From assembly GCF_002077175.1 (NCBI RefSeq), contig NZ_CP014943.1, positions 2,046,001 to 2,110,000 of the forward strand: DNA of 64,000 nt. Direction: 5' to 3'. A model generated the notes under the pieces. The model ran no database searches. It was not told where the DNA came from and saw only the letters and a list, made by a program, of their open reading frames with translations. This document shows, one piece after another, positions 27,621 to 43,586 of the stretch; position 1 is the stretch's first letter; every line of letters starts with the position of its first letter. Position numbers and translations under genes: made by a program. The DNA comes from Colwellia sp. PAMC 21821 (GTDB taxonomy: Bacteria > Pseudomonadota > Gammaproteobacteria > Enterobacterales > Alteromonadaceae).

Positions 27621-27678
27621 AATTATGTAAAAAAACTACATAATTAGCTTTACATGCTTAGAGTCGTTACTCTATAAT
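27621..27678 (+). promoter_or_regulatory. Promoter region of candidate sRNA A, with two palindromes
   Basis: TTTACA (27649-27654) and TATAAT (27673-27678) are separated by 18 bp, a good sigma-70 promoter. A 9-bp inverted repeat (27621-27629/27637-27645) lies directly upstream of the -35. TAGAGTCGTTACTCTA (27659-27674), a 6-4-6 palindrome, overlaps spacer and -10. The second palindrome is shared in form by the paralogous promoter near 43554-43569. Confidence 0.75.
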
Positions 27679-27684
27679 GACCTT

Positions 27685-27778
27685 GTTCCCAAATTGAACA
27701 CTTGTTGTGATAATTTGTATTTTAAGCTTCCCCATATAGCTTTTGAGTCGATAATTTATTTTTTCGGCTCTTTTTTTT
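27685..27778 (+). ncRNA. Candidate small RNA A (paralogue of the RNA at 43456-43543)
   Basis: Predicted transcript of about 94 nt, start uncertain by 2-3 nt, ending at a Rho-independent terminator (GAGTCG 27745-27750 / CGGCTC 27765-27770, then eight T). There is no ATG in it. From the 5' end: a stem-loop TGTTC-N7-GAACA, the motif TGTTGT with an A/U-rich stretch suited to Hfq, and a hairpin AAGCT/AGCTT displaying CUUCCCC in its loop. All of these recur in the RNA at 43.5 kb. It sits directly after polA, where Spot 42 (spf) is found in enterobacteria and vibrios, but the Spot 42 sequence is absent. C-rich loops of this kind pair with Shine-Dalgarno regions in other sRNAs; that role is inferred here. 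Confidence 0.75.
27745..27778 (+). terminator. Rho-independent terminator of candidate sRNA A
   Basis: GAGTCG/CGGCTC stem with one G-T wobble and a 14-nt T-rich loop, followed by eight consecutive T. It is well separated from polA, which has its own terminators upstream. Confidence 0.8.
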
Positions 27779-27903
27779 GCCTGAAATAATGTTTTTAAAT
27801 GCTCACGGGAATAAGTTGGTTTTGCTTGAAATGTACATTTTGTAATTATATTACAACGTGGCTGTGTTAATGTGTGTTAGGCATTGGTACTGAACGTTAT
27901 TAT

Positions 27904-29364
27904 TTACTTATTTTTATGTGAAAGCATCGTTAAGCATAAGTTTAAATGTTCAACTAATGCAGCGCAGTGATCAAAATCAATCAACGAAATTTCTTTATCA
28001 CTATGAAAGATCTGAGCGGTAATAACCCCAATCGGTGTTTGTCCAACTTTTAAAGGGCAGATTAATACCGAACCTTCGACGATGAACTCGGCTATTTCTC
28101 CAGTAATATATTGATACCACTGCTTTTCCTGCCGATCTTTTATTAATATTGCTTGGTTATTATCCATGGCATAACTAAAGACATTATTACTGCGAGAAAG
28201 AGAAAATCTTACGTTTTTATCTATAAGCTGACTAGCGATGTCGTAAGTAAAGCGAGACTTTATGGCCTTTTTATCATCAATAACTAAGAGAAAACTACAG
28301 TGTTCAAAAGCAAAGATTTTTGCCATAGATTTTAGTGTCAATCGGATAAATTCTGTTAGATCGGTTGATGTTTTAAGTAATTTGTTGAGCTGTATATATA
28401 CACTGAGAATGTCACTGTCTTTATGTGGGTTAGGCTTTAAAACTTGATACTTATTACCTTTAAAGTCACTTACCTTTGGTAGCGGATTAATATGTTTTAT
28501 TAATGCCGATGCACCATAAGACGTAAGTAATTTAGTCGCTCTTTCGCGCAGATGTTCTATTTTTAGTACTAATTGCCGAACGTTTAAACCGGTTAATTTC
28601 GCAATATCAGCTAAAAGTTGCTGAAACTCCTCTGCGCTGCCAGTAGGGTTTGCGATGGAATTACTCAATTTGTCGGCAAAATATATTATTTGAATTTCAA
28701 TAGTTCTGCTTTTAGGTTTATCCATTGCTTTTAGGAGTAGGTCACTCAAGCTCCAAGTTTTTACAAGCTCTGTACTCAATTGGGAAAAATCACAGCCAAT
28801 TTCACTTAGGCACTTTTGGCGAAAATTTTCAGAAGTCATATCTCCGTGTGATATTAACTTTTCAGCCGACTTACCACCAACAATCCAAAAAGCTGTTTCA
28901 CCAATTCGATAAAGCATCGCTGCTAAATAAAGCTCTTCTTGGGTGTCTTCTGCATACTGTGGCGCCATCATTTTCGCTAATAATCCGGCATAAAATGAAT
29001 TGGCCATTGATTGTGTTAATTGATGATAAACATCGGCATTAAGCTCTTTATTTGCCAGTAACCCTTCAACTAACTTAGAAGTCAGACAGATGTTTTTAAC
29101 CGCCCGAATACCTAAAACTACTGATGCTCGAGATACAGTATTTACTTTGTTAATACTCAAGTGCTGAACGCTGTTGGCAACTTTAAGTAAGCAAGATGCA
29201 AGCGCCTGATCGTGTAAAATAGCTTTACTTAACTTAGGCAAAGACGACTTATCGTCATTATTAAACTTATCCAGCATTCTGGCTGTTGAAGTGATGGCAG
29301 GTAATTCACTTTTTGCGATTATATCAACCCAGTGTTGAATTGAAATCTGCGGTGCGTCTTTCAT
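27904..29364 (-). CDS. HDOD-domain signalling protein with C-terminal GAF-like domain
   Basis: About 486 residues. An N-terminal HDOD domain (about 10-215) shows the ELPAITSTARMLDKF opening helix and SRASVVLGIRAVKNICL core; HDOD is a non-catalytic relative of HD phosphohydrolases used in signalling and cell-cycle control. A GAF-like domain (about 310-480) follows after a helical linker. No output domain is attached. The start at 29364 is preferred: GGAG lies 7 nt upstream and the HDOD N-terminus begins there, whereas the more upstream ATG at 29424 has no support. Ligand and partners are unknown. Confidence 0.82.
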   Translation of the reverse strand: MKDAPQISIQHWVDIIAKSELPAITSTARMLDKFNNDDKSSLPKLSKAILHDQALASCLLKVANSVQHLSINKVNTVSRASVVLGIRAVKNICLTSKLVEGLLANKELNADVYHQLTQSMANSFYAGLLAKMMAPQYAEDTQEELYLAAMLYRIGETAFWIVGGKSAEKLISHGDMTSENFRQKCLSEIGCDFSQLSTELVKTWSLSDLLLKAMDKPKSRTIEIQIIYFADKLSNSIANPTGSAEEFQQLLADIAKLTGLNVRQLVLKIEHLRERATKLLTSYGASALIKHINPLPKVSDFKGNKYQVLKPNPHKDSDILSVYIQLNKLLKTSTDLTEFIRLTLKSMAKIFAFEHCSFLLVIDDKKAIKSRFTYDIASQLIDKNVRFSLSRSNNVFSYAMDNNQAILIKDRQEKQWYQYITGEIAEFIVEGSVLICPLKVGQTPIGVITAQIFHSDKEISLIDFDHCAALVEHLNLCLTMLSHKNK

Positions 29365-29732
29365 CTCTTTGCTCCGAGTGGATAAATCATGTTTTATTTT
29401 TAGCCATTTTATCGAGCGTAACACATATTTTTATAAAATTATTGTTAACAGATCTGGGATTTTATAATCGTATCTTTTGATGTACGTAAAAGTAATCGCA
29501 CTTTTATCGTGTAACGATGTCCGACACTTCATGATAATTTTGTGTTGTAAATTGCCAAGCTTGAACCGTTAAATAGATGTGCTTTGGCATGAAAAGTAAA
29601 ATTCGTGATCTTGTACTATTTGTAATAGCATCATTTTTAATACAATATCAATGCTAATCTATTGTACTTATTGTCTATTTAGTTAGTATTGAACTAGCTA
29701 AACATAATCGATTTAAATAAAAGGGGAAGGTT
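29365..29732. other. Intergenic region between divergent genes
   Basis: AT-rich 368-bp gap between the HDOD gene and the M16 peptidase gene. I see no hairpin or repeat of note. Immediately before the peptidase start, AAGGGGAAGG (29721-29730) is an unusually G-rich ribosome site that contains the exact complement of the CUUCCCC loop of the two candidate sRNAs. Confidence 0.5.
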
Positions 29733-32582
29733 TTGAATAAATGGATGCTACCGGTGTTATTAACGTGTTTAACGGCATGTGAAAATACTACAAAATCAGA
29801 AAAACAGATGTCTGCTACAACGGTTGCAGGGATAAACTTTGTAGAAAGTGTGGGTACGAAAAAAGGTAAAACGGTCATTCCTTATCAAAAATATGTGCTT
29901 GATAATGGTTTAACCTTAGTGCTGCATCAAGATAAGTCTGACCCTCTTGTACACGTCGATATGACCTACCATGTAGGCTCTGGTCGAGAAGATATTGGTA
30001 AGTCTGGCTTTGCACATTTCTTTGAGCATATGATGTTTCAAGGCTCAGAAAACGTCGCGGATGATGAACACTTTAAAATAGTCACCGAATCTGGCGGTAC
30101 CATGAATGGTACGACTAATAGTGACCGGACAAATTATTTTCAAACCGTGCCAGCGAACCAACTGGAAAAAATGTTGTGGCTCGAAGCTGACCGCATGGGA
30201 TTTTTAGTTGACGCGGTAACCCAAGAAAAATTTGAAATACAACGTGAAACGGTAAAAAACGAACGTGGCCAAAGCTACGAAAATCGACCTTATGGATTAT
30301 TACGTGAGCGGGTTTCTGAAGCTATGTATCCTTTAGGGCACCCTTATTCGTGGCAAACAATAGGTTATATTGACGACTTAAATCGCGTGAATGTTAACGA
30401 TTTAAAAGCCTTTTTCTTGCGCTGGTATGGTCCTAACAATGCAACATTAACCATAGGCGGTGATCTTGATGTTGTTGAAACTTTAGCCATGGTTAACAAG
30501 TACTTCGGGAGTATTCCTCGTGGTCCTGAAGTAAAAATGCCGATAAAGCCAAGCTTTACTATTGAGGCTGATCGCTATATTTCGATGGAAGACAATGTGC
30601 ACTTACCTTTAGTGTATATGTCGTATCCAACCGTAAGTGTTAGACATAAAGACGAAGCCGCGCTGGATTTATTGTCTAGTATTTTGGGTGGTGGAAAAAC
30701 CTCATTACTTTATAAAAACTTAGTTAAAAATCAGTTAGCTGTTCAGGCTTCAGTAAGTCATCCTTGTGCAGAGCTTGCTTGTACTTTCAATATGTTAGCT
30801 CTACCACATCCAGCTTCGGGTAAAACATTGGCAGATATGGAAATAGTTATTCGTGATAGCTTGCTTGAATTTGAAACTCGTGGCGTTGAAGACGACGACT
30901 TAATCAAAGCCAAAGCTGAAATGGAAGCCGGTTTTGTATTTGGTTTGCAAAGTGTAGCGGGTAAAGTAAGCCAATTAGCGGCTAATGAAACCTTTAAAGG
31001 TAATCCGAATTATATCGAACAAGATATTGCTCGTTATGCCAATGTTACCAAAGCTGATGTGATGCGTGTTTATAAAAAATATATTAAAAATAAACATGGT
31101 GTGATCATGAGCATAGTGCCGAAGGGGCAAACAGCGCTGGTTGCAGCACAAGATAACTTTAGTCCTGAAGCTCGCGTTATCCCCGAACTTGCTTCTACCT
31201 CTGAGGACGATTTACAGGTTCGAAAAGCTAAGGATAATTTTGATCGCAGCATAATGCCAGTAGCAGGGGCAAATAAAGCCGTTGATGTACCTGAAATGTG
31301 GCGAGAAACGTTTAATAACGGTATTAAAATACTAGCAACACAAAGTAGTGAAACACCAACCACTTCAATATTAATAAAAATTCCAGCAGGGCATTACTTT
31401 GAGAGTAAAGACAAGGCAGGTACAGCCGCGCTTTTAGCCGCAATGTTAAATGAGTCTACGACTAAACGTAGCGCTGAAGACATGAGTAAGGCACTGCAGA
31501 AGTTAGGTTCCTCTGTTGGTATTGCTGCCGGAAACGACTATTTAGCGATCAATATAAATGCGCTAACCAAGCATATAGATGCCACGTTAGACCTTGTGTA
31601 TGAAAAAATCACTGAGCCAGCATTTTTACCCAGTGAGTTTGACCGCAATAAAAGCAACGCGATTCAAGGGGCGATTAATGGTAAAAAAGATGCTGGTTAT
31701 TTAGCATCGAATGCTTATCGTCAATTACTGCATGCAGATAATATTGCCGCAACCTCGAGTGCGGGCTCAGAAGCATCATTAGCTAATATCCAATTAGCCG
31801 ATATTAAAGCGCTGTATCAACAGCAAATTAAAGCCAAGGGCAGTGAAATAATATTAGTTTCTGATTTAGACAAAGTAAAAGTGTTGAAGTCACTCAGTAT
31901 ATTTAAGGCACTGACTGGCGAAGGCAAAGAGCTGATATTAAACCTCCCTGAATCGAATGCTAAACGTGGCGTTATTTATTTAGTTAACAAAGACAATGCT
32001 GCGCAGTCTGCTATTCGTATTGGTAAGCGTTCACTTACTCAGGATGTTACTGGTGAGTACTATCGTGCTTACTTAATGAACTTCCCGTTAGGTGGTGCAT
32101 TTAATAGCCGTATCAACTTAAACTTACGTGAAGATAAAGGCTATACCTATGGCGCACGTTCGTATTTTTATGGTGATAAATTCTCTGGTACTTATACCGC
32201 TAGCGCAGAAGTTCGTGCAGACGTAACCGACAAGTCTATTGTTGAGTTTGTAGAAGAAATTAAGCGCTACGCTGAGCAAGGAATAACGGATGAGGAGTTG
32301 GCCTTTATGCGTAATGCTATCAACCAAAAAGATGCATTAAAGTATGAAACCCCCGGCCGTAAATTAGGCTTTTTAGCGCAAATTTTAGAGCATAATTTAA
32401 CGGCTGATTTTGTCAAAGAGCGCAATGACATTGTGGCGAATATTAGTAAAGCAGAAATTAATGCCTTAGCGAAAAAACACTTAAACTTAAGTGAAATGTT
32501 AATGGTAGTGGTTGGCGATGCTAAAACCTTGAAACCGCAATTACAGGCACTAGGTTACCAAGTTATTAATTACGAAATTTAA
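29733..32582 (+). CDS. M16-family zinc metallopeptidase lipoprotein
   Basis: A 949-residue two-domain M16 peptidase (pitrilysin/processing-peptidase family). The inverted zinc motif HFFEH is at about 95-99, with a downstream glutamate in TVKNERGQS as third ligand. The second half (about 510-949) is the inactive M16 partner domain and keeps the Arg/Tyr-rich RxxxGYTYG-type segment. The N-terminus is a short leader with lipobox LTAC, so it is probably membrane-anchored in the periplasm. The start codon is TTG at 29733, with AAGGGG 6 nt upstream; the ATG four codons later would remove the basic residue of the leader. It is monocistronic. Confidence 0.92.
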   Translation: MNKWMLPVLLTCLTACENTTKSEKQMSATTVAGINFVESVGTKKGKTVIPYQKYVLDNGLTLVLHQDKSDPLVHVDMTYHVGSGREDIGKSGFAHFFEHMMFQGSENVADDEHFKIVTESGGTMNGTTNSDRTNYFQTVPANQLEKMLWLEADRMGFLVDAVTQEKFEIQRETVKNERGQSYENRPYGLLRERVSEAMYPLGHPYSWQTIGYIDDLNRVNVNDLKAFFLRWYGPNNATLTIGGDLDVVETLAMVNKYFGSIPRGPEVKMPIKPSFTIEADRYISMEDNVHLPLVYMSYPTVSVRHKDEAALDLLSSILGGGKTSLLYKNLVKNQLAVQASVSHPCAELACTFNMLALPHPASGKTLADMEIVIRDSLLEFETRGVEDDDLIKAKAEMEAGFVFGLQSVAGKVSQLAANETFKGNPNYIEQDIARYANVTKADVMRVYKKYIKNKHGVIMSIVPKGQTALVAAQDNFSPEARVIPELASTSEDDLQVRKAKDNFDRSIMPVAGANKAVDVPEMWRETFNNGIKILATQSSETPTTSILIKIPAGHYFESKDKAGTAALLAAMLNESTTKRSAEDMSKALQKLGSSVGIAAGNDYLAININALTKHIDATLDLVYEKITEPAFLPSEFDRNKSNAIQGAINGKKDAGYLASNAYRQLLHADNIAATSSAGSEASLANIQLADIKALYQQQIKAKGSEIILVSDLDKVKVLKSLSIFKALTGEGKELILNLPESNAKRGVIYLVNKDNAAQSAIRIGKRSLTQDVTGEYYRAYLMNFPLGGAFNSRINLNLREDKGYTYGARSYFYGDKFSGTYTASAEVRADVTDKSIVEFVEEIKRYAEQGITDEELAFMRNAINQKDALKYETPGRKLGFLAQILEHNLTADFVKERNDIVANISKAEINALAKKHLNLSEMLMVVVGDAKTLKPQLQALGYQVINYEI

Positions 32583-32600
32583 CGTTAAGCAACGAAATTG

Positions 32601-32632
32601 AAGGCTGCCAATCGGCGGCCTTTTTATTTTTT
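32601..32632 (+). terminator. Rho-independent terminator of the M16 peptidase gene
   Basis: AGGCTGCC/GGCGGCCT stem (one wobble), ATCG-type tetraloop, then TTTTATTTTTT. It begins 19 bp after the stop codon. Confidence 0.9.
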
Positions 32633-33034
32633 GTCGCGCTTTTATGATTAATGTTTTTGTACTTCACAGTTCTTCGATGGTAAATTTTCCTATTTAAAAA
32701 ATTTCACCACCGAGACACAGAGGCGATGCCCGCTTCACCGAGAAGTGATTTCAATAGCAAAAGTCAATTGTACTTGTGATGTGTTACCTCCTGCAGTTCT
32801 CATTATTTTCTCCCTGTGAATGATTACTTTTTTTACCGAGCGGAAATAATGAGGCAGTTATTGAGGTATTTAAGATCGGGAACATTTGGCTTTAAGCATA
32901 AAAATTGCTTTATATTTGCCATATTTTACAAAAAAAGTGAATAAGCCGAACGGTTTTATAAACGCTAAAGAGAATAACGCTGCCAGTGTATATGCCCTGA
33001 CAGCGCTTATTTATGTACTAAAATATAGTCTACA
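32633..33034 (-). other. Convergent intergenic region with a weak leftward hairpin
   Basis: About 400 bp between convergent genes. A 9-bp stem with one mismatch-type wobble (32978-32986/32997-33005) just past the S10 peptidase stop may serve as its terminator, although the T-tract is poor. The segment around 32704-32740 (ACCACCGAGACACAGAGG) looks like a remnant of an interspersed repeat, but I see no second copy here. Confidence 0.4.
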
Positions 33035-34558
33035 CTATGGCTTACTTTGATATTTTGCCGGTGTGGTTTTATTCGGTAAAGTCGCTTTGATAAACTCACG
33101 AATATCTTGGTTAGATGCTTCTAAGTCTTGGTAGCGAAGATACATCATATGGCCACTTTTATAGCCTTTAAATGACAATCTATCTTTCATTTTTCCACTT
33201 GGGTCAAGTTGCGATAAGGTATATTTAGCATCAAAATAATTAGTCGCACCGTCGTAGTAACCCGATTGAATCATCACGTTTAAATACGGATTTTGTGCCA
33301 TGGCTAAACGTAAGTTTTTACCTGTGTTGTTATTGGTTCTATCCCACGGATGCACGTTACCAAACATATTATATTTAAGATCAGTTTTGTAATTAAGCTC
33401 TTCACGTAAATAGTAATTTATGGCGGGCGTAAAGCTGTGTAACCAAGACGTTAGCTCGGCGTTGTAATCGGGGCGGCTGCCAGTCACTTTTTCATCAATA
33501 CCTAAATAACGCGAGTCTAAGCGACCCACGGTTTGTTCGCGGTTACGCAGTATTTCTTTCCAAAAGTAAGACGCTTCAATATCTAAATTATTACGCAGTA
33601 CTTCTTGCACCGATAAACCAGAATATCGTGCCACTTGTTTAGCGATGCGCTGTTTTTCATCTTCAGCAATAAAGCCACCTTTGGCTAGTGCGGGTAGATA
33701 TTGCTCAAGGGTGAACTTTTCAATTTCTGGCAATATTTCTAATAAATCTTGGTTTTGTAAATCGGCAGACAGTGCTTTGTGATACCAAGCCGTTGCTGCG
33801 AAATATGGTAAGCGATTAGCTGCTTTTACCGGACCGTCACGTTTGATACCTATGTCGGTAGGAGACACTAAAATTACACCGTTTAGGTACATCCATTGGC
33901 GAGATTGTAATTCTAACGCTAAGCCTGAAACTCGCGTGGTGCCATAACTTTCTCCAATAAGATATTTTGGTGATTGCCAACGATTATTGCGCGTAACAAA
34001 AGTGTTAACCCAATCAGCCAAGTATTTAACGTCAGCATTTACACCAAAGAACATGTTCTTTTGTTCTTCTTTTGACGGCATATTACCTTCTTTATCCGGT
34101 AAAACGCGCGAATAACCGGTGTTGACAGGATTCACAAATACAATATCAGCGGTGTCTAAAATTGAAAATTCATTGGTTTTTACGCCGTATGGCTGAAGAG
34201 GAAAACCCTCGCTATCAACATTGAGTACTTTCGGGCCGGTATAAGCTACGTGCATCCAAACTGAAGCCGAACCTGGACCGCCATTAAATGATATGAGTAA
34301 AGGGCGTGCGGCGTTATTTTTTACTTTCGAACGTTGGTAATAAGTATAAAAAAGGCTGGCGATTGGGTTGCCATCTTCGTCCCAAACGGGTTGTGTGCCA
34401 GTGGTGGCCGTGTAATCAAATTTTTTGCCGTTAACTTTAGTACTATGACTACTGGTTTTGCTTTCATCGATAGCAATTTTGCGTTCAAATTCTGCATTTG
34501 CTAAGGGCGATAACAATAAGAGTAGACTTGATAAGGTTAAAAGATGTCGAAATGTCAT
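33035..34558 (-). CDS. Serine carboxypeptidase-like protein (peptidase S10 family)
   Basis: About 507 residues with a signal peptide (about 1-22). The S10 signatures are visible: oxyanion-type FNGGPGSASVW, nucleophile serine in GESYGTTR, and the C-terminal histidine in KSGHMMY. S10 enzymes release C-terminal amino acids; this one is exported and probably acts on environmental peptides. The ATG at 34558 starts directly at the leader, while an upstream in-frame ATG (34615) would put 19 polar residues ahead of it. The neighbouring M16 and M1 peptidases suggest a peptide-scavenging lifestyle, but they are separate units. Confidence 0.88.
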   Translation of the reverse strand: MTFRHLLTLSSLLLLLSPLANAEFERKIAIDESKTSSHSTKVNGKKFDYTATTGTQPVWDEDGNPIASLFYTYYQRSKVKNNAARPLLISFNGGPGSASVWMHVAYTGPKVLNVDSEGFPLQPYGVKTNEFSILDTADIVFVNPVNTGYSRVLPDKEGNMPSKEEQKNMFFGVNADVKYLADWVNTFVTRNNRWQSPKYLIGESYGTTRVSGLALELQSRQWMYLNGVILVSPTDIGIKRDGPVKAANRLPYFAATAWYHKALSADLQNQDLLEILPEIEKFTLEQYLPALAKGGFIAEDEKQRIAKQVARYSGLSVQEVLRNNLDIEASYFWKEILRNREQTVGRLDSRYLGIDEKVTGSRPDYNAELTSWLHSFTPAINYYLREELNYKTDLKYNMFGNVHPWDRTNNNTGKNLRLAMAQNPYLNVMIQSGYYDGATNYFDAKYTLSQLDPSGKMKDRLSFKGYKSGHMMYLRYQDLEASNQDIREFIKATLPNKTTPAKYQSKP

Positions 34559-34832
34559 CACAATGTTCTCAGTGTTAGGGAATTTTTTAGTTGTGTATCT
34601 AGCGTACGACAGCATGAAGACAAAGTCATATTTAAAAGTTAGAACGAGTATATATAGCGATTAATGACCTAGCGACTAATAAAACAAGGTATGTTAAATC
34701 GAACCACCTTAGTACTGTTTCTTTAAAACATGGGTTATCGAGTGCGTCTACTGCCTTATCCCCTAGAATTAGGCTGCATCTTCAAGGGGAGAGAATTTTT
34801 CAGTAGGCCTTTACAACAAAAATGATTAAATA

Positions 34833-34869
34833 ACATTTAGCTTAATGGAATGCAGCCCAAGCTAAATGT
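34833..34869 (-). terminator. Probable terminator of the HutD-like gene
   Basis: A perfect 11-bp inverted repeat (34833-34843/34859-34869, 15-nt loop) lies 19 bp beyond the leftward gene's stop, followed on that strand by a T-rich but interrupted tail. Confidence 0.55.
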
Positions 34870-34887
34870 AGCCTAAGGGAAATGTCG

Positions 34888-35466
34888 CTATGTGCAATGG
34901 TTTAGATAAACAATAATCAGATGTTCACCTGTTATGGATGAATGGTTTTTTGCTAAATCGGTTATTTTTACTAAATGCTGGGCAGGTAAGGTGAGCGTTT
35001 TTTGTGTGTTGTGGTCGGTAAGTTCGGCATCTTTGAATAAACTATAGATAAAACATAAGTCGCTATTTTCAAGTGGATGATTTTTCGTGCTTGTCTGGCA
35101 GTCTAGCTTGGTATTAAAGGCTGAAGTGCGGGCAATAATATTAAAGTCGGTTATTTCATTACTGTACAAGTTGCCAACGGTTTTGTTTCCGCCATCAAAA
35201 GTCGCAAAATCAAGCAGTTTGGTTAATCGATCAATTTTACTGTCATTGTGTTGTAGATTAATGCCATCGCCTTCAATTAAAATTAGGTTACGGGTGTAAT
35301 CAGTGAAATTAGAAAATATACCGTCTTCAACCACACTTGCCATACTTAAACGCCAGTTGAAATTATCTAAGGTTCCACCAGGATTTATTGCCATTTCGAC
35401 CGTCTCGCCTTTGCCGTTTTTCCATGGCACGGTTTTAAATTGTGTTGGTTGAATAATTTCGATCAT
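34888..35466 (-). CDS. HutD/Ves-family cupin-like protein
   Basis: A 192-residue protein of the HutD/Ves family, recognised by the opening PTQFKTVPWKNGKGETVEM and the FNWRLSMASVVEDGIFSNF segment. The fold is a bicupin. HutD is linked with histidine-utilisation operons and Ves with cold-induced expression in E. coli, but the biochemical function is unclear. No hut genes are nearby, so the histidine link is not supported here. It is transcribed alone. Confidence 0.82.
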   Translation of the reverse strand: MIEIIQPTQFKTVPWKNGKGETVEMAINPGGTLDNFNWRLSMASVVEDGIFSNFTDYTRNLILIEGDGINLQHNDSKIDRLTKLLDFATFDGGNKTVGNLYSNEITDFNIIARTSAFNTKLDCQTSTKNHPLENSDLCFIYSLFKDAELTDHNTQKTLTLPAQHLVKITDLAKNHSSITGEHLIIVYLNHCT

Positions 35467-35700: not shown

Positions 35701-35730
35701 TTACGCTCTATTTAATAAAAGGATATTATT

Positions 35731-36225: not shown

Positions 36226-36249
36226 GCGTTTGGTTTTTTTGTATTACTT

Positions 36250-36277
36250 AAAAGGGAAGCCAATGTGCTTCCCTTTT
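36250..36277. terminator. Bidirectional Rho-independent terminator
   Basis: AAAAGGGAAGC (36250-36260) and GCTTCCCTTTT (36267-36277) form a perfect 11-bp stem with a 6-nt loop between the convergent beta-barrel and M1 peptidase genes. Confidence 0.85.
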
Positions 36278-36315
36278 ACATTAAACAACACTAAACAATA
36301 CAATTGCAGGCTAGC

Positions 36316-38013
36316 TTAATCACCCAACAAATTCAAGGTACTGATATAGAAATTAGCATCGACCTTAAATTTCAGTTTCACTGTTTCATGGTTATCTTTA
36401 GTTCGTTGTTCATCAATGCTCATTTTTTCCCATTTAGTCGAAGGCGATAACCACATGGCTTTGCCGTCAATAAATACCCGTACCGGCATATTAAAGCCCT
36501 CGATAACATTACTCCAACGATATTGCATTTGGTTATTTTTAATAAAATACTCTAGGGTTGGAATGCGAATGTCACGTAGGTATTGGTCAAACACCTTGCT
36601 TAAATCTTTGCCCGATTGATCACTGATATAACTTTCAACTTGCGCTGTTTCTACCACACCATGATAAAACGTTTGGTTTAATCCGCGTAAAATACTACGC
36701 CAAGTTTCATCATTATTGATGATTTGGCGAATAGTGTGCAACATGCTGCCACCTTTGTCATACATGTCACCTGAGCCTTCTTGATGTAAGCCATATTGGC
36801 CTATAATCGGGCTTTTATTCTGAATGTTTAAGCGCTTGCCTCGAATATATTCAAAGGCTTTTTCTTTATCATAGTGATACTCCAAGAATAAACTTTCTGA
36901 GTAACTGGTAAAGCTTTCGTGTATCCACATATCGGCAATGTCATTGTGGGTAATGTTATTCGCAAACCATTCATGACCCGACTCGTGCACAATAATAAAG
37001 TCAAATAGCATCCCCGCGCCTGTTTGGCTGCGATCACGGCCTAAATAGCCATTTTGATAACCATTGCCATAGGTTACAGAGCTTTGATGTTCCATGCCCA
37101 AATAAGGCGCTTCAACAAGCTTAAAGCTGTCTTGGTAGAATGGATAAGGGCCAAACCAATATTCGAATGCTTGAATAGTCCGCTTAGCATCTTTGAACTG
37201 TTTTTTGGCTTTGTCGATATGGTCGCGTAAAACATAATAATCCATGTCGAGCTGACCTAACTCTCCTTGATATTGCTCACCAAAATGCACGTAATCACCG
37301 ATGTTAATGTTGATACCATAATTATTAATTGGGTTGACAACTTGCCAGTGAAAGGTTTTGGTTTTGCGAAATTTATTATGCTGAACGTTAACTAAGCGAC
37401 CGTTCGATACATTCATTAAATGCTCAGGTACTTCAACACTGATCATTGCTCCTTGATCTGGTTCGTCGTAGGCGTGATCTTTATTTGGCCACCAGATACT
37501 GGCGCCTAAACCTTGGCATGACGAAGCAATGAAGTCATTACCGTTATCATCTTTGCTCCAGGTGATACCGCCGTCCCAAGGTGCGCGAACAGCTTCATGA
37601 GGCATGCCTGAAAAGTGCATCGTTAGTTGGTACTCTTTGCCAACTTCTTGTGCTTGGTTAATGCTAATAAAATACGAGTAACCTAATTGTTCTACCGCTA
37701 ATAAAGTACCGTTTTGCTCCACTTTTGTGAGCTGCATTGGTGCCTGTAATTCAATTTGTAGACGCTTCTTCTCTGACAGCACGGTGTACTTCATGGTGTT
37801 GGTGCCAGAAATACTTTTGTTTAAAGGGTCTACACTAATATCTAACTCATAATGGCTTAAATCCCACCATGCTCTTTCAGGCGTTATGGTGCCACGAAGG
37901 ATATTTTGATGGTGATCATCGATTACACGTTTAGGAAATAAATCAGCCGTAGCTTGGTTGCCTGTTATTAGGCTAAGCAGCAGTAGTATTGAAACAATAA
38001 TTTTGAGGTACAT
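36316..38013 (-). CDS. M1-family aminopeptidase, secreted
   Basis: About 565 residues. After a signal peptide (about 1-23) comes an M1 N-terminal beta domain and the catalytic domain with HESGHEW near residue 340 and the third-ligand glutamate in WIHESFTSYSE. The substrate-anchoring GxMEN motif appears as GMEH, a variation that could alter N-terminal recognition. There is no large C-terminal helical domain, so it is the short M1 form. I prefer the ATG at 38013 because it begins the leader; an upstream ATG at 38049 would add 12 residues, and neither has a clear ribosome site. Confidence 0.88.
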   Translation of the reverse strand: MYLKIIVSILLLLSLITGNQATADLFPKRVIDDHHQNILRGTITPERAWWDLSHYELDISVDPLNKSISGTNTMKYTVLSEKKRLQIELQAPMQLTKVEQNGTLLAVEQLGYSYFISINQAQEVGKEYQLTMHFSGMPHEAVRAPWDGGITWSKDDNGNDFIASSCQGLGASIWWPNKDHAYDEPDQGAMISVEVPEHLMNVSNGRLVNVQHNKFRKTKTFHWQVVNPINNYGININIGDYVHFGEQYQGELGQLDMDYYVLRDHIDKAKKQFKDAKRTIQAFEYWFGPYPFYQDSFKLVEAPYLGMEHQSSVTYGNGYQNGYLGRDRSQTGAGMLFDFIIVHESGHEWFANNITHNDIADMWIHESFTSYSESLFLEYHYDKEKAFEYIRGKRLNIQNKSPIIGQYGLHQEGSGDMYDKGGSMLHTIRQIINNDETWRSILRGLNQTFYHGVVETAQVESYISDQSGKDLSKVFDQYLRDIRIPTLEYFIKNNQMQYRWSNVIEGFNMPVRVFIDGKAMWLSPSTKWEKMSIDEQRTKDNHETVKLKFKVDANFYISTLNLLGD

Positions 38014-38055
38014 AGGCGATAATTGGCAGTAGTTGGTAATAGCAAGCATGAATAT

Positions 38056-38082
38056 AAAAAGCAGCGATTAACGCTGCTTTTT
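38056..38082 (-). terminator. Terminator of cytochrome c4 gene
   Basis: AAAAAGCAGCG/CGCTGCTTTTT, an 11-bp perfect stem with a 5-nt loop, 41 bp beyond the cytochrome stop on the leftward strand. The stem itself ends in a T-run. Confidence 0.85.
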
Positions 38083-38123
38083 TACATAATAAACTTTACG
38101 CGCTAATTAAATAGCGAGCGTTA

Positions 38124-38744
38124 TTATTTTAAAGATGACATGTATTGCGACAGCGCGGCAATTTCATCGTCAGTTAAATTAGCCGCAACACCTTGCATCA
38201 TGCCATTAAGGTCATTATTACGTGAACCGTTACGAAATTTTTCTAATTGAATTTTTAAGTATTCAGCATTTTGGCTAGCAAGGGCAGGGAAACCTGCACT
38301 AGGCATGCCCTTACCGTTAATACCATGACAAGCAACACATGCGGTAACTTCCATTTCAGCGTTACCGCCTAAATAAAGTTTTTTGCCTAAAGCGTCAGCG
38401 TTGCCCGTACCAGCGGTTATTTTTTGGCTGGCATAAAATGCGGCAACGTCAGCCATGTCTTGTTCGCTAAGTGCCATAGACATGCCACCCATAACAGGGT
38501 CAACACGGCCTGATTTACCACCCGATGTCATGCCTAATTTGAATTCGGTAAGCTGTTTAACTAAGTAACTAGCACTTTGCCCAGCCAATTTAGGGTACAT
38601 AGGCACAAGGCTATTACCGTCAGCGCCATGACAAGCAGCACACATAGCTGATTTGCCTTTACCTGCTTCGGCATTACCTTCAGCTGCATTGGCTGTAGCG
38701 ATAGCACTTAATCCTAATAAAACAGTAATGATAAATTTTTTCAT
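38124..38744 (-). CDS. Diheme cytochrome c4
   Basis: A 206-residue periplasmic electron carrier. Signal peptide about 1-20; two c-type heme motifs CAACH (35-39) and CVACH (136-140); methionine ligands are probable in DPVMGGMSM and LNGMMQGV. Size and two-domain symmetry match cytochrome c4, which donates electrons to terminal oxidases. A larger tetraheme relative lies immediately upstream on the same strand, and engB beyond that; cytochrome c4 next to engB is a conserved gammaproteobacterial arrangement. Confidence 0.93.
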   Translation of the reverse strand: MKKFIITVLLGLSAIATANAAEGNAEAGKGKSAMCAACHGADGNSLVPMYPKLAGQSASYLVKQLTEFKLGMTSGGKSGRVDPVMGGMSMALSEQDMADVAAFYASQKITAGTGNADALGKKLYLGGNAEMEVTACVACHGINGKGMPSAGFPALASQNAEYLKIQLEKFRNGSRNNDLNGMMQGVAANLTDDEIAALSQYMSSLK

Positions 38745-38909
38745 TGGTTTAGTCTCTGCTTGTCGTAAACACGATAAATGGTTTACTTCTAAAATTTGTT
38801 AACTAGATTGCTTTGCATTCTACACGATTTTAGTGATTGTGAAATAATGACGTTAAGAAAATCAAACAATTGTTTAGTTGTTCGGCATGAGTTCGTAATG
38901 CAAATACAA

Positions 38910-38936
38910 GAAGGGCAGCGATATTCGCTGCCCTTC
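38910..38936 (-). terminator. Probable terminator of tetraheme cytochrome gene
   Basis: GAAGGGCAGCG/CGCTGCCCTTC, an 11-bp perfect stem with a 5-nt loop, 36 bp past the stop on the leftward strand, followed by TTGTATTT. The stem core AGCAGCG/GGGCAGCG resembles that of the neighbouring c4 terminator. Confidence 0.75.
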
Positions 38937-38971
38937 ACATTAATTTATAACGTTATAAATTTTCAATAAAT

Positions 38972-40198
38972 TTATTTCATTGATGCCATATATTTGGCTA
39001 ACTCGTCCATGTCGCTAACAGAAAGCTTTGAAGCAACACTTTGCATCATGGTGTTGTAATCGTTATTACGCTCACCTTTTTTAAAGCTCATTAACTGTGC
39101 TTTTATGTAGGCTTCGTTTTGGCCAGCAATGGTTGGAAATCCTGCTTTGTTCATGCCTTTACCGCTCACACCATGACAAGCAACACAAGCCGTGATTTTA
39201 CGCTTAACGTTACCACCAAAATAAAGCTTTTTGCCAATATCAGAGCCGGCTAATTCTGCAACAGCAACTTTTTGTGTGGCATAAAAGCTCGCAATTTCTA
39301 ACATGTCTTGTTCACTTAATGCTGCAGCCATAGGTCCCATAACTGGATTCTGGCGAGTACCTGCTTTAAATTCTTGCAACTGTTTTATGATGTAATCAGC
39401 ACTTTGACCCGCAAGTTTCGGATAAATAGCTACAGGGCTGTTGCCATCGGCGCCGTGACAAGCTGCACATGTAGCCGATTTTGCTTTACCAGCAATTACT
39501 TCAGCCGTTACAGGAGCTGCAGGCATCACTCTACGCGATACCACGTTTGCAACCGCGGCAGGGTCGGCAAAGTAAGCCGCCATATCAGCAATGTCATCTT
39601 CAGTCATGTTGCCAGCAAATTGGTTCATGGCGTAGTTAACACGATCTTTATGTTTGAAATTCATTAACTGTTTAGCAATGTATTCAGCGTGTTGATTAGC
39701 TAAATTAGGATAAATTAAAACTTCACTGTTACCTTCGCGACCATGACAACCGATACATGAGGCAATGTTACGTGAAGCATCACCTAATTCGTATAAACTT
39801 TTGCCCGCTGCTGGGTTTGGTACGTAGGCCACTGGTGCTGCACTACCTGAAGCACCAGCGTCTGCTGAACCTGCATCTTGGCTGCCACCGTCATGTGGTA
39901 AATCAGCAAAATATGCGGCAAGGTCAGCCATATCTTGTTCAGATAACGGTGCTGCCATTGGACCCATTAATGGGTTTTTACGATCTCCAGATTTAAATGC
40001 TTTTAACTGTTTGACAATATAATCAGCATGTTGACCGGCTAAGTTAGGGAATGTATCGCTAGCGCCAATGCCATTTGAGCCATGACATGCCGCACAAGTC
40101 GCTGCCTTAGTTTTACCAGCGTCAACATCGCCCGACGCAGCTACAGCAATATTAATACTTAATAGTGTTAAAAATAACGAAGTTAAAATATGTTTCAT
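38972..40198 (-). CDS. Tetraheme cytochrome c, internally duplicated c4
   Basis: A 408-residue exported cytochrome with four CxxCH sites at 35-39, 148-152, 244-248 and 338-342. Each half is a complete c4-like pair: residues about 20-215 and about 230-408. The second half is very close to the adjacent diheme c4 gene (shared CAACHGADGNS and CVACHG-x-GKGM motifs). An Ala/Gly/Ser-rich linker (about 101-128) joins domains 1 and 2. It probably carries electrons in the periplasm between the bc1 complex and oxidases. Signal peptide about 1-21. It is separated from the c4 gene by a terminator, so the two are likely separate units. Confidence 0.9.
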   Translation of the reverse strand: MKHILTSLFLTLLSINIAVAASGDVDAGKTKAATCAACHGSNGIGASDTFPNLAGQHADYIVKQLKAFKSGDRKNPLMGPMAAPLSEQDMADLAAYFADLPHDGGSQDAGSADAGASGSAAPVAYVPNPAAGKSLYELGDASRNIASCIGCHGREGNSEVLIYPNLANQHAEYIAKQLMNFKHKDRVNYAMNQFAGNMTEDDIADMAAYFADPAAVANVVSRRVMPAAPVTAEVIAGKAKSATCAACHGADGNSPVAIYPKLAGQSADYIIKQLQEFKAGTRQNPVMGPMAAALSEQDMLEIASFYATQKVAVAELAGSDIGKKLYFGGNVKRKITACVACHGVSGKGMNKAGFPTIAGQNEAYIKAQLMSFKKGERNNDYNTMMQSVASKLSVSDMDELAKYMASMK

Positions 40199-40230
40199 AA
40201 CAAAACTCTCAACATGCTTTTGTGTTTATT

Positions 40231-40246
40231 ATTGAATGCATTCAAT
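40231..40246. promoter_or_regulatory. 16-bp perfect palindrome in the cytochrome promoter region
   Basis: ATTGAATGCATTCAAT is a perfect palindrome 33 bp upstream of the tetraheme cytochrome start, in the divergent gap with engB. It is not an FNR box. It could be an operator for the cytochrome gene. Confidence 0.4.
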
Positions 40247-40331
40247 AAGCTTAAAAATCGGCAACATCATACACCATTAAAGCACTTTAGAGGGATTTTT
40301 AGCTAATTTTTTTACCAAAAATTGAATACAA

Positions 40332-40362
40332 TTGCATCTTTAATGTGAAAAAACGATATAAT
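40332..40362 (+). promoter_or_regulatory. Probable engB promoter
   Basis: A perfect TATAAT (40357-40362) lies 32 bp before the engB start. The best -35 candidate is TTGCAT (40332-40337) at a rather long 19-bp spacing. Confidence 0.5.
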
Positions 40363-40394
40363 GCGGTTTTTATTTATATTGTTGGATCTAAATC

Positions 40395-41051
40395 TTGTCA
40401 TCTACAGCCATTCATCTTAGCAAAGCGACTTTTACCCTTAGCGCACCCGATATCCGTCGTTTACCCGCAGATAGTGGTATTGAAGTTGCTTTTGCAGGTC
40501 GCTCTAACGCCGGTAAATCAAGTGCGTTAAACACATTAACTAATCAAAGAAGCCTTGCGCGTACCAGTAAAACACCGGGACGAACTCAGCTTATTAACAT
40601 TTTTGAAATTGCCGAAAACAAGCGTTTAGTCGATTTACCTGGCTATGGTTTTGCTAAAGTGCCAATGGAAATGAAGAAAAAATGGCAAAAAGCACTTGGC
40701 GAATACCTAGAAAAGCGCGAGTGCTTGAAAGGCTTAGTCATATTAATGGATATACGCCACCCACTAAAAGATCTTGATATGGATCTTATTCAATGGGCTG
40801 CAGACGGCGAATTACCCGTTTTAGCGCTATTAACAAAAAGCGATAAGCTGTCTCAAGGTAAAGTGAGTGCGCAAGTACACTTCGTTAAAAAAGAATTAGC
40901 AGCACTAAACGCTGATATTAAGGTACAGGCGTTTTCGTCGTTAAAACGCACAGGCTCAGAGCAGGCTGATAAAGTGATTTGCGACTGGTTCCAAGATGAG
41001 AACATTCAAGCGTTAAATGAATCAGACGAAGCGCCTTTAATCGAAGAGTAA
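40395..41051 (+). CDS. engB: Ribosome-biogenesis GTPase EngB (YihA)
   Basis: A 218-residue GTPase. G1 [10 protein letters not shown]3 DLPGYGF and G4 TKSD are all present; the length matches EngB/YihA/YsxC. It is needed for late assembly of the large ribosomal subunit. The start is TTG at 40395; the N-terminal sequence lines up with E. coli YihA from there ([12 protein letters not shown]), and no ATG is available nearby. In E. coli the gene follows polA and spf; here about 13 kb separates polA from engB. Confidence 0.95.
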
Positions 41052-41081
41052 TTGCAATATAATTGCAACATGAATGCATTC

Positions 41082-41112
41082 AAAAACGCCTCGAATTATC
41101 GGGGCGTTTTTA
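41082..41112 (+). terminator. Rho-independent terminator of engB
   Basis: AAAAACGCCTCG pairs with CGGGGCGTTTTT (one G-T wobble) across a short loop. The T-run is part of the stem end. It lies 31 bp after engB, before the convergent msr operon. Confidence 0.85.
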
Positions 41113-41161
41113 TATTCAGCATACCAGCCAAAGCGTGTAACTACCTTGTTATACTCATAAA

Positions 41162-41689
41162 CTAATTGCTCGTGACGTCGATACCTGCAGTGACTAACTT
41201 TTCATAATTCACATGTTTGTTAAAACGCTGCATTAACAGTTGTAATTTTGGGTGAATATATCGTTGGCAAAAAGGTCGACTCGGTGCGGAGTATAGGTAA
41301 TCGGTTAACGCGACTTTATTGGCTTTAAAGTCTTGAAAGGGTAATACTTTAGTAATTACCTTTTCGTCAAAGTCAGATTGTAATTCACGCAAAATATCAT
41401 TGCTTTTTTCTGCTTGTTCAACACTATATGTATAAATAGCAGAGCGATATTTGTTACGCATTGAGTGAACAGCAGTACAAGCATGTGTATGTAAATGAAT
41501 GCTGATCAAATCGACTAATGAAATAACATTTGGCTCAAAATATACTTCAATGGCTTCAGAAAATTGCGTATTTGTACCAGTAGAGCTTATCCACCCTTGA
41601 TTGATTTTTACAATCCCATTTAATGATGCAAATACGCCTTCGGTACACCAATGACATCCGCCACCTAACCCAACTTTGCTTGTTGTCAC
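41162..41689 (-). CDS. MsrA-family protein with GCHWC active site
   Basis: About 175 residues, related to peptide-methionine (S)-S-oxide reductase. The catalytic motif is GGGCHWCTEG (Cys12 and Cys15), not the classical GCFWG, leaving a CxxC pair. It is the last gene of msrB-msrA-msrA2. The start is uncertain: GTG at 41689 lies 7 nt after the msrA stop and gives a normal MsrA N-terminus; an in-frame ATG at 41749 would overlap msrA by 53 nt and one at 41806 by 110 nt. Downstream residues that shape the sulfoxide pocket diverge from MsrA, so the substrate may differ. Confidence 0.75.
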   Translation of the reverse strand: MTTSKVGLGGGCHWCTEGVFASLNGIVKINQGWISSTGTNTQFSEAIEVYFEPNVISLVDLISIHLHTHACTAVHSMRNKYRSAIYTYSVEQAEKSNDILRELQSDFDEKVITKVLPFQDFKANKVALTDYLYSAPSRPFCQRYIHPKLQLLMQRFNKHVNYEKLVTAGIDVTSN

Positions 41690-41696
41690 TGGCAGG

Positions 41697-42194
41697 TTAT
41701 TTTTCAGGTAGCACCCAGTCGGCGCGTGGAAAATGGCAAGTGTAGCCATTGGGCACACGCTGTAAATAATCTTGATGCTCAACCTCAGCTTGCCAAAAAT
41801 CGCCAACAGGCTCTACTTCAGTAACCACTTTTCCTGGCCACAAACCAGAAGCATTAACATCTGCTATGGTTTTGTCAGCGATAGATTTTTGCGCTGGGCT
41901 AGTGTAATAAATTGCTGAGCGATATTCGCTACCAAGATCGTTACCTTGTCTATTTTCTGTTGTAGGATCATGTATTTGAAAGAATAGTTCTAAAATTTTT
42001 CGATACCCGATCACAGTATTATCAAAATACACTTCAAGGCCTTCGGCATGATTACCGTGGTTTCGGTAAGTCGCATTTTTAACATCGCCACCAGTATAAC
42101 CAGCAGACGTTTTAGTAATGCCTGGTAACTTACGTATTAAATCTTGCATGCCCCAAAAGCAACCACCGGCTAGAACAGCTCGTTCAATGGTCAT
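41697..42194 (-). CDS. msrA: Peptide-methionine (S)-S-oxide reductase MsrA
   Basis: A 165-residue enzyme with the classical GGCFWG active site (Cys12), the GYTGG segment and [10 protein letters not shown], all typical of MsrA. It repairs the S-epimer of methionine sulfoxide in proteins. No signal peptide, so it is cytosolic. It starts 3 bp after msrB and is followed 7 bp later by a second MsrA-like gene; the three clearly form one operon against oxidative damage. Confidence 0.95.
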
Positions 42195-42197
42195 ATT

Positions 42198-42641
42198 TTA
42201 TCCCTCTACTTGTGGTAAATAGGCTTCATACCCTTCAGCGATCATATTGTCACGATGAATAAATTTTAGCGAAGCCGAATTAATACAATAACGTAAGCCG
42301 CCTTGTGCCACAGGACCATCGTTAAATACATGGCCTAAGTGACTATCGCCATGAGTTGAACGAACTTCTGTACGCACCATGCCATGAGTATCATCAGTAA
42401 GCTCATTTACATTTGTGCTTTCAATGGGCTTACTAAAACTCGGCCAACCACAGCCAGCATCAAACTTGTCAGCAGAGGCAAACAAAGGCTCGCCTGAAAC
42501 AACATCGACATAAATACCAGGTGCAGTATTTTCTAATAGTTCGCCAGTCCAAGGGCGTTCGGTGCCGCTTTCTTGGGTTACACGATATTGTTCAGCGGTT
42601 AACGCAGCAACAGCATCGTTTGATTTTGTATATTGTGACAT
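42198..42641 (-). CDS. msrB: Peptide-methionine (R)-S-oxide reductase MsrB
   Basis: About 147 residues. The catalytic cysteine is in RYCINSASL, and the GCGWPSF and HLGHVF motifs are intact. The structural zinc cysteines found in many MsrB proteins are missing (the first CxxC position reads VDVVSG), so this is the zinc-free form. It reduces the R-epimer and complements MsrA. The start at 42641 is set by AGGAG 5 nt upstream; an ATG two codons earlier overlaps that region. First gene of the operon. Confidence 0.94.
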   Translation of the reverse strand: MSQYTKSNDAVAALTAEQYRVTQESGTERPWTGELLENTAPGIYVDVVSGEPLFASADKFDAGCGWPSFSKPIESTNVNELTDDTHGMVRTEVRSTHGDSHLGHVFNDGPVAQGGLRYCINSASLKFIHRDNMIAEGYEAYLPQVEG

Positions 42642-42929
42642 AAGCACTCCTGAGTAGCTTGATGGCGATTAATGACTTATTAATGCAATAAATAAATGAA
42701 ATATTATCCTGATCAATACTGCTTAACAATAGACCGGAAAGTTAAGGATTAATTCACTAATGTATTGAATCTATATTGAGCAATAATTCGATATAACAAG
42801 GTTTAGGTGAGGTAAACCGGCCTAAAAGCACAAACCTGCTATATTTAATAGGCGATTATCGCAAACTCGAGTTTACTTAGAAGTGAGTTGTTTCGTAGGC
42901 CTTGTCGAACTTTCAACAAGGAACATAAA

Positions 42930-43391
42930 ATGAACTTCAAATTAACTATAGTATTACTAGCCACTATTGCTTGTTTTAACGCAAATGCCGAAAATTGGAA
43001 TAAACAACAAACTGAAGTATGGAATATTGTCTTGGCTTCATATGAAGATATCGACAAACGAGATATCAATTGGACCGATAAATGGGTAACCCAAGATGCC
43101 ATGGTATGGGGCAGCAGTACGCCAATGCCTCGTAGTCGCAGTGCGATAAAACGTTGGGAAAAATTCAGCTTTGAAGATGGAACAATTAACAACGTTGCAG
43201 AATACAGCCCGACCGCAATTGTTGTTCATGGCGACACAGCGGTTACTCATTATTACTATTCTAATGGCACTACGTCTAAAAAAGGAGACCAAAAAGTTAC
43301 TCATGGTCGTTGTAGTGATGTCTTAGTTAGAGATAACAAAGCGTGGAAATTTGTCGCTTGGCATTGCGCAGAGGAACCGAAAAAGCATTAA
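42930..43391 (+). CDS. Secreted NTF2-like (SnoaL/DUF4440-type) protein
   Basis: About 153 residues: a signal peptide (about 1-20, cleaving after NANA) and a single NTF2-like cone domain resembling DUF4440/SnoaL proteins. The start at 42930 has AAGGA 8 nt upstream; an earlier in-frame ATG (42888) would precede the leader with basic residues. These domains bind small ligands or act as simple enzymes; no catalytic residues can be assigned. Monocistronic and divergent from the msr operon. Confidence 0.72.
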   Translation: MNFKLTIVLLATIACFNANAENWNKQQTEVWNIVLASYEDIDKRDINWTDKWVTQDAMVWGSSTPMPRSRSAIKRWEKFSFEDGTINNVAEYSPTAIVVHGDTAVTHYYYSNGTTSKKGDQKVTHGRCSDVLVRDNKAWKFVAWHCAEEPKKH

Positions 43392-43455
43392 TTGATTAAG
43401 TAATGGAATCAAAATTAATTTTCGGTAAGAGGGGGTTACGACGAATTTCAGACAT

Positions 43456-43486
43456 AAAAAAACCGATGGCTAAAGGGGCCATCGGT
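43456..43486 (-). terminator. Rho-independent terminator of candidate sRNA B
   Basis: A 9-bp perfect stem (43462-43470/43478-43486) followed on the leftward strand by seven T. No protein gene ends into it. Confidence 0.85.
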
Positions 43487-43543
43487 ATAGAAGCTTGGGG
43501 AAGCTAAATTCAAAATTAATACAACAGGTGTTCTAACGAGAAC
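43456..43543 (-). ncRNA. Candidate small RNA B (paralogue of the RNA at 27685-27778)
   Basis: A leftward transcript of about 88 nt in the 623-bp gap before the PEP-CTERM gene. It begins about 7 nt after TATAAT and ends at a Rho-independent terminator (ACCGATGGC/GCCATCGGT, then seven T). Shared with RNA A in the same order: CTTGTTC...GAACAC forming a TGTTC/GAACA stem with a different loop, TGTTGT, TAATTT, and AGCTTCCCCA. Here CCCC is the tetraloop of an AGCTT/AAGCT hairpin. No ORF, and no leftward gene nearby that this terminator could serve. Shared promoter, body motifs and architecture show common descent; function is inferred only from the C-rich loop. Confidence 0.75.
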
Positions 43544-43549
43544 AAGTTC

Positions 43550-43586
43550 ATTATAGAGCAAGAACTCTAAAAGTAAAGCCTTTACT
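43550..43586 (-). promoter_or_regulatory. Promoter of candidate sRNA B with palindromes
   Basis: On the leftward strand TATAAT (43555-43550) is preceded by TTTACT (43577-43572) with a 16-bp spacer. The spacer contains TAGAG-N6-CTCTA (43554-43569), the same palindrome type as in promoter A. AGTAAAG-C-CTTTACT (43572-43586) is a second palindrome covering the -35. The rest of the 43392-44014 gap (43587-44014) is AT-rich and shows nothing else I can name. Confidence 0.7.

Follow-up and report, generated by a model that had tools for sequence, protein, structure and literature searches.

A conserved, apparently uncatalogued family of predicted small RNAs in Colwellia and its relatives, with one copy in the slot behind polA

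Introduction

Spot 42, the textbook sugar-response RNA encoded by spf, is elsewhere found in the slot directly after polA. In a stretch of 64,000 nucleotides (nt) from Colwellia sp. PAMC 21821 (NZ_CP014943.1, positions 2,046,001 to 2,110,000; hereafter the window, with coordinates counted from its first letter), this slot holds another predicted small RNA (sRNA), which we call copy A, and a sibling, copy B, lies 15.8 kb away in convergent orientation. The nearest positional parallel is VSsrna24, a second sRNA in the interval after polA. It is about 60 nt long, lies 262 nt downstream of spf, and is stated to be limited to the Vibrionaceae (PMC3295665; also named in PMC13250501).

Functional parallels come from more distant bacteria. 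LhrC of Listeria is a multicopy sRNA that recognizes its targets through a C-rich UCCC motif in loops or single strands and acts on lapB without Hfq (PMC4132741). The C-rich loops of Xanthomonas sX13, which also works without Hfq, match G-rich motifs near translation starts (PMC3771888), and the Neisseria siblings NgncR_162/163 repress metabolic targets by pairing with ribosome-binding sites (PMC9973317). The RNAs described here differ from LhrC, which has five near-identical copies, three motif sites per RNA and a host from another phylum, from sX13 with its three C-rich loops, and from NgncR_162/163, whose genes adjoin each other; for all three, sequence relation was checked through Rfam only. 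For HexR the consensus is TGTAATTAAATTACA, and binding sites located upstream of promoters are regarded as activating (PMC11906056). In the papers found, HexR and Spot 42 appear together in two, each of them on Neisseria (PMC9973317, PMC4423775).

We consider it probable that copies A and B belong to one sRNA family that is usually represented by two paralogues in a genome, acts in trans through base pairing, places its siblings under different controls, and is historically the neighbor of Spot 42. Marine gammaproteobacteria would thereby gain an sRNA family with an alignment, models, a promoter map and one specific prediction, the control of copy A by HexR. What replaces Spot 42 where it is missing becomes a testable question, and the two promoter classes offer a natural example of duplicated sRNAs that diverge in their regulation. 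The analysis also brought out, as a by-product, HexR-type sites on Spot 42 itself in Vibrio and several Alteromonadaceae.

Results and Discussion

Two paralogous loci

A sequence-only reading of the window had proposed a two-member family of paralogous, possibly undescribed sRNAs at two intergenic loci, and both loci are present at the positions and on the strands that it gave. They share a single order of elements: promoter, TAGAGT..CTCTATAATGA, TTGTTC..GAACA, TGTTGT, AGCTTCCCCA and terminator. Copy A follows polA (24618..27413, plus strand; Pfam DNA_pol_A, E 4.4e-162, plus exonuclease domains), the DNA polymerase I gene, whose own terminator-like hairpin was placed by the terminator scan at 27508-27534. 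The promoter of copy A, TTTACA-18-TATAAT (27649-27678, plus strand; -35 box 27649..27654, -10 box 27673..27678), shows 11 of 12 sigma-70-like hexamer matches. With the start placed from the -10 box, the predicted RNA of about 94 nt spans 27685..27778 on the plus strand. It comprises a conserved core (TTGTTGTGATAATTTGTA, 27702..27719), a hairpin 2 with a C-rich loop (UCCCCAUAU, 27724..27742; four inner pairs with probability 0.96-0.99) and, in the predicted fold, a terminator hairpin with U tract (27745..27778), which is missing from the terminator-scan list because its loop exceeds the length allowed by the scan.

Copy B lies on the minus strand. Its promoter, TTTACT-16-TATAAT (43577-43550; -35 box 43572..43577, -10 box 43550..43555), has 10 of 12 hexamer matches, and the RNA of about 88 nt predicted from it spans 43456..43543. 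Pair probabilities place hairpin 1 (TGTTC..GAACA) at 43529..43544, the predicted fold places hairpin 2 (AGCTT-CCCC-AAGCT) at 43492..43505, and the terminator scan places the terminator at 43456..43486. As read from sequence, each locus thus has its own promoter, a short predicted transcript and an intrinsic terminator with a U tail, which is the layout of a trans-acting sRNA gene.

The likeness of the two loci exceeds chance. Smith-Waterman comparison of A (27640-27780) with B (43450-43590) gave a score of 304, against a mean of 138 (standard deviation 17, maximum 199) for 200 dinucleotide shuffles of B compared with A. The fold z-scores are -3.8 for copy A and -4.3 for copy B, and none of 200 shuffles folded as well. 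The family was defined by iterative nhmmer searches of fetched loci together with a covariance model, R1, built from 24 sequences (alignment A2) that include locus B and exclude locus A. In the whole genome this model nevertheless recovers locus A with 76.9 bits (E 1.6e-10), and its matches at E<=0.1 are exactly two, copies A and B. The proposed paralogy is borne out by these comparisons.

The 5' stem that the sequence-only reading had assigned to both RNAs is predicted in copy B (pair probabilities 0.71-0.91) but not in copy A (below 0.01), where the 5' part is predicted to form another hairpin, CAAAUUG/UAAUUUG. In the subclade of the window, copy A seems to have swapped its 5' hairpin for a longer one of the CAAAUU/AAUUUG type. 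In the window, the computed hairpin of this type (27690-27718) encloses the UUGUUG core; the same exchange is apparent by eye from the alignment at four further loci (L024, L026, L029, L035). The identity of polA, the Spot 42 slot, the wider family and the regulatory sites discussed below all lie beyond what that reading had observed.

Extent of the family

"Two-member" describes the family inside this genome and not beyond it. Among 290 genomes of the taxonomic family, R1 has matches at E<=0.1 in 109 and at E<1e-5 in 87, the latter spread over 18 genera. Counted at E<=0.1, 16 of these 87 genomes have one match, 64 have two and seven have three; the family-wide counts were tallied by hand from printed tables. 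In 11 genomes of the window's genus both places are listed on the same contig; there the two copies converge at a distance of 11-17 kb. Tandem copies occur elsewhere, as at L284, where three follow one another at a spacing of about 260 bases. Among the 36 Colwelliaceae-type polA loci picked by title, some of which end at a contig edge, a copy lies in the first 1.5 kb behind polA in 23.

Eleven of the 19 pairs of R1 show changes on both sides, in 35 cells, which none of 500 shuffles equaled, although relatedness among the members inflates these figures. RNAalifold on the first alignment, A1, had recovered the terminator alone, in part owing to a register shift of five A-type sequences in hairpin 2; A2 omits these five and three further rows. 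Alignments made with covariance models (A3, A5, A6) were not used for models, as distant members were badly placed in them; A3 held one match and A5 two matches that were judged to be chance.

Among the checks that the sequence-only reading had suggested was a covariance search against Rfam, which gave no significant match for either locus. Neither locus reaches any Rfam 15 family, as that reading had supposed, and no Rfam 15 family attains its gathering score anywhere in the window. A relaxed search of both loci (E<=10) did not return RF00021 (Spot 42). The matches to SNORD50, BjrC1505, Hrs13, Qrr and others that appeared at relaxed thresholds fall far short of the respective gathering scores and are attributed to chance; for Qrr, copy B scores 17.9 bits where at least 50 are required. 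By title and abstract, no description of the family was recognized in the open-licence PubMed Central (PMC) literature on sRNAs of this locus and lineage, VSsrna24 and HexR, and none was recognized in main-text passages of PMC5471319 (Shewanella sRNAs) and PMC11882849 (Pseudoalteromonas Csr sRNAs). "Possibly undescribed" therefore still fits this literature. At the level of sequence, the conserved sRNA family is real and apparently uncatalogued; its expression is predicted.

Two promoter classes and putative HexR sites

What had been described as a TTAGAGT spacer followed by CTCTATAATGA forms a palindrome, TAGAGT-N4-ACTCTA, overlapping the -10 box. This 16-bp element, O2 (TAGAGYnnnnRCTCTA), lies across the -10 box in both copies, as TAGAGTCGTTACTCTA in copy A (27659..27674) and TAGAGTTCTTGCTCTA in copy B (43554..43569, minus strand), and is found with at most one mismatch in 60 of 74 members. 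Of the 80 rows listed, six of them chance pattern matches, 53 have an exact O-type palindrome in the 110 nt upstream; none of 1600 base shuffles has one. B-type members carry a second palindrome, O1 (TTTAGAGTAAAGGCTTTAC), across the -35 box; in copy B it reads TAGAGTAAAGGCTTTA (43574..43589, minus strand). A-type members are without O1; theirs is a 15-bp palindrome located at -75 to -77 relative to the core, or about -58 relative to the predicted start. In copy A this is TGTAAAAAAACTACA (27626..27640), one mismatch from the HexR-type motif TGTARTnnnAYTACA.

HexR-type sites with at most one mismatch are found in 29 of the 74 members, against 0.28% of base shuffles, and 26 of these 29 lie at -75 to -77. 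Another 28 members have O1 at the same stringency and no HexR-type site, and no member has both; since the members are related, these counts do not represent independent events. A second HexR-type site, TGTAATTATATTACA (27841..27855), exact, lies about 60 nt beyond the copy A terminator. Twelve Colwellia-type loci carry it exactly and L035 carries it with one mismatch; L045 lacks both the upstream and the downstream site. The flanks of the downstream site align poorly save between the closest relatives. The DNA and genes that follow vary, and several relatives lack the HDOD/GAF gene found here at 27904-29424, so the site seems tied to the sRNA locus and not to a fixed neighbor.

The genome of the window encodes HexR, a regulator of central carbon metabolism (NF008451, 520 bits against a cut-off of 296), beside zwf. 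Exact HexR-type palindromes occur in it four times: in the hexR/zwf gap, before gapA, within a coding gene, and beyond the terminator of copy A. One-mismatch sites lie between fba and a pgk-like gene (below its NCBIfam cut-off) and also before malQ. Given two palindromic sites of the TGTAATTAAATTACA type that are conserved in relatives, we infer that HexR may bind at copy A. The same RNA family and mechanism would also be compatible with 15-bp palindromes that serve another factor or are AT-rich chance. The single mismatch of the upstream site speaks for this, as does the genome-wide count of the one-mismatch motif, which at 59 is below the 131 of the reversed control, and so do the eight Shewanella-type Spot 42 loci, none of which has a HexR-type site before Spot 42. 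The fixed position, the exact and conserved downstream sites, and the presence in this genome of exact matches at hexR/zwf and gapA argue the other way, and we regard a non-HexR origin of the palindromes as unlikely.

HexR-type sites also precede Spot 42. With up to two mismatches they occur in 26 of 39 Spot 42 loci (5.5% of shuffles), and 22 of the 26 lie at -56 to -59 from GTAGGG, which was taken as the Spot 42 start. Nine Vibrio loci carry the site as TGAAAAAAAAYTACA, a form of which, TGAAAAAAAATTACA, is given as a putative HexR site at pgi (PMC11906056). This suggests that Spot 42 itself may be under HexR control. Palindromes of this kind (0-2 mismatches, 56-59 nt before the start) are seen in Vibrio, Zobellella and several Alteromonadaceae; the loci with a HexR-type site upstream of Spot 42 are L071, L082-L083, L085-L091, L094, L107, L113, L115, L118-L119, L121-L124, L186 and L248.

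The slot behind polA

In 13 of 20 chosen loci (four from Vibrio, seven from Shewanella, and one each from Parashewanella and Zobellella), RF00021 is matched just downstream of polA, the position that copy A, but not copy B, occupies in the window. In Shewanella and in Alteromonadaceae that we call Rheinheimera-like (the name is an impression), a second RNA with its own promoter follows Spot 42. It consists of a variable 5' hairpin, a core that reads UUGUUG or, in some cases, CUGUUG, a further hairpin whose loop is of the UUCUCCCC type, and a terminator; R1 scores it weakly (23-36 bits). This neighbor RNA has no Rfam 15 entry, and no name for it was found in the accessible parts of the open-licence PMC literature.

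A second model, R2, was built from nine of these neighbor RNAs. Within the same taxonomic family it matches at E<1e-8 in 14 of the 32 genomes that have RF00021 at E<1e-4. Thirteen of the 14 matches sit right after Spot 42; because nine of these are the source of R2, four (G042, G045, G110, G137) are independent. The fourteenth (G020) is on another contig, beside a gene that reads as engB-like. In an order-level sample, R2 matched 9 of 295 genomes at E<=0.01, and those in G017 (an R2 source), G045, G018 and G561 were judged true. On reading, the matches at L261 and L266 were assigned to a region that we take to be that of RyhB, and the one at L262 to chance.

If the 147 genomes of the RF00021 survey are G000-G146, as assumed in our hand-made cross-table, R1 matches 52 of them at E<1e-5 and RF00021 matches 32 at E<1e-4, with no overlap. 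A more sensitive RF00021 search of 34 R1-rich genomes gave a best match of 5.9e-4. The same search gave 1.1e-9 to 5e-27 in four Spot 42-positive genomes, two of them over the Rfam cut-off, and at E<=1 it also fires in 7 of 14 control genomes. Taken together, these results indicate that the two RNAs are distinct neighbors, with Colwellia-like lineages clearly showing only the new one. In Colwellia-like genomes no clear Spot 42 is seen, and the slot behind polA is taken by copy A.

Copy A could be thought a strongly diverged Spot 42, given that it shares the slot and has a HexR-type site at about the same distance from its start as many Spot 42 promoters (-56 to -59 in 22 of 39 loci). Yet RF00021 is missing from the E<=10 lists of both loci, its requirement of at least 80 bits is reached by neither, and GTAGGGTACAGAGG, the 5' end found in the Spot 42 loci compared, is absent from copies A and B. 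Where Shewanella and other Alteromonadaceae hold both RNAs, the family models pick up the RNA that follows Spot 42, not Spot 42 itself. This coexistence largely refutes the idea of a diverged Spot 42, which we rejected as quite improbable. Homology with VSsrna24 found no support either: a UCUCCC stretch is visible in Vibrio loci, but R1 gave a single match across six of them (E 0.67, before polA), R2 gave none at E<=0.1 in two Vibrio genomes, and neither finds anything after spf there.

We put forward one history as possible and somewhat doubtful. Spot 42 would have been lost in the Colwellia lineage, and its neighbor would have taken both the slot and, as copy A, the HexR-responsive promoter position. 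Copy B would have kept the neighbor's own O1 promoter, and the same RNA body would now answer to a sugar signal in one copy and, in the other, to a different signal that a TetR-family regulator might sense.

O1-like sites and a TetR-family gene

O1 resembles an element, TTTAGAGYAAATACTTYAAAC, that precedes the Spot 42-neighbor RNA in Shewanella and others. When up to two mismatches are allowed, this element occurs at 31 places in 16 genomes, against four for a reversed control; 13 of the 31 are the sRNA loci from which it was derived and 18 lie elsewhere. In G000 and G007 the sole such place precedes a TetR-family gene. An O1-like site with one or two mismatches lies 69-75 nt before this tetR in five of five Colwelliaceae genera, whereas the ten other homologues have at best a three-mismatch site. 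The product is thus a candidate regulator of the O sites, offered as a lead only. TetR-family genes (PF13972) with an O1-like palindrome are found at L184 (1592-2248) and at L223-L227, and the one at L184 adjoins a SnoaL-like gene and a gene that reads as coaD-like.

Proposed mode of action

Each RNA would consist of about 90 nt with a folded 5' part, the UUGUUG core, a short hairpin with a C-rich loop and an intrinsic terminator with a long U tail. Among the structured elements, hairpin 2 with its C-rich loop varies least. The loop has an anti-Shine-Dalgarno character, UUCCCC here and UUUCCUC or UUCUCCCC in relatives, and would most likely cover G-rich ribosome-binding sites and so repress translation. 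Pairing of this kind is likely by analogy with sX13, LhrC and NgncR_162/163. Hfq is probably involved, but since LhrC (on lapB) and sX13 work without it, it is not a given here. Copy A, with O2 and HexR-type sites before (about -58) and after the gene, would be linked to central sugar metabolism; copy B would be read through O2 and the O1 across its -35 box, a motif that also stands before the TetR-family gene.

The elements might instead be mRNA 5' leaders or attenuators, or stray promoter-terminator pairs, and not free sRNAs. Each predicted transcript, however, terminates before any gene, copies A and B face converging open reading frames (27904-29424, minus, the HDOD/GAF gene; 42888-43391, plus), and relatives differ in the DNA and genes that follow copy A, which makes this explanation very improbable. 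CsrB/RsmZ-like protein sponges carry GGA in their loops. That our RNAs are such sponges instead of base-pairing sRNAs is scarcely credible, despite the several copies, the conserved hairpin loop and the position of CsrC downstream of spf in E. coli (PMC3295665), because the loops are C-rich (UUCCCC, UCCUC) and repeated GGA was not seen in the loops of the two loci and the aligned members.

Several observations weigh against the proposal of a base-pairing family with differently controlled siblings and a past beside Spot 42. On the RNA itself, hairpin 1 is disfavored in copy A by its pair probabilities, and the C run of the loop is gone from L061 and L072, which are two of the 32 members aligned. 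As to history, 13 of the 36 Colwelliaceae-type polA loci lack a copy within 1.5 kb, a strong R2 match is missing from 18 of the 32 Spot 42 genomes, and covariation among the nine neighbor RNAs, in an alignment partly out of register, is not significant. "Spot 42 present" rests on E<1e-4 because only one of the 147 genomes passes Rfam's own cut-off. On the control side, 15 of the 74 members lack both O1 and a HexR-type site at one mismatch or fewer, 11 of these 15 carrying a HexR-like site with two mismatches. L279 and L281 combine O1 with a two-mismatch HexR-like site, and the one-mismatch HexR-type motif is rarer in the genome than its control. The link between tetR and O1 is confined to the five Colwelliaceae genera, and a looser O motif shows no consistent excess over reversed-pattern controls in the window's own genome. 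An O-motif regulon in this genome was accordingly set aside.

Neighboring genes and further O-type sites

Copy B is flanked by a SnoaL-like gene and a PEP-CTERM gene. Among the three tandem copies at L284, exact O1 and O2 are kept in one and altered in two. Among the exact O matches inspected, only those at L130 (beside a marC-like gene) and L134 lie outside long open reading frames. In Shewanella (L202-L205, around 1501) a second O1-like site precedes a DUF1302-type gene, confirmed by Pfam in L203 only. In the Rheinheimera-like loci (L194-L198 and L200, around 1501) an O1-like site lies between genes that read as ruvB-like and ybgC/tolQ-like; next to it, around GCGCTAGCTCAGAACACCTG, is a conserved stretch that may be a further promoter or RNA.

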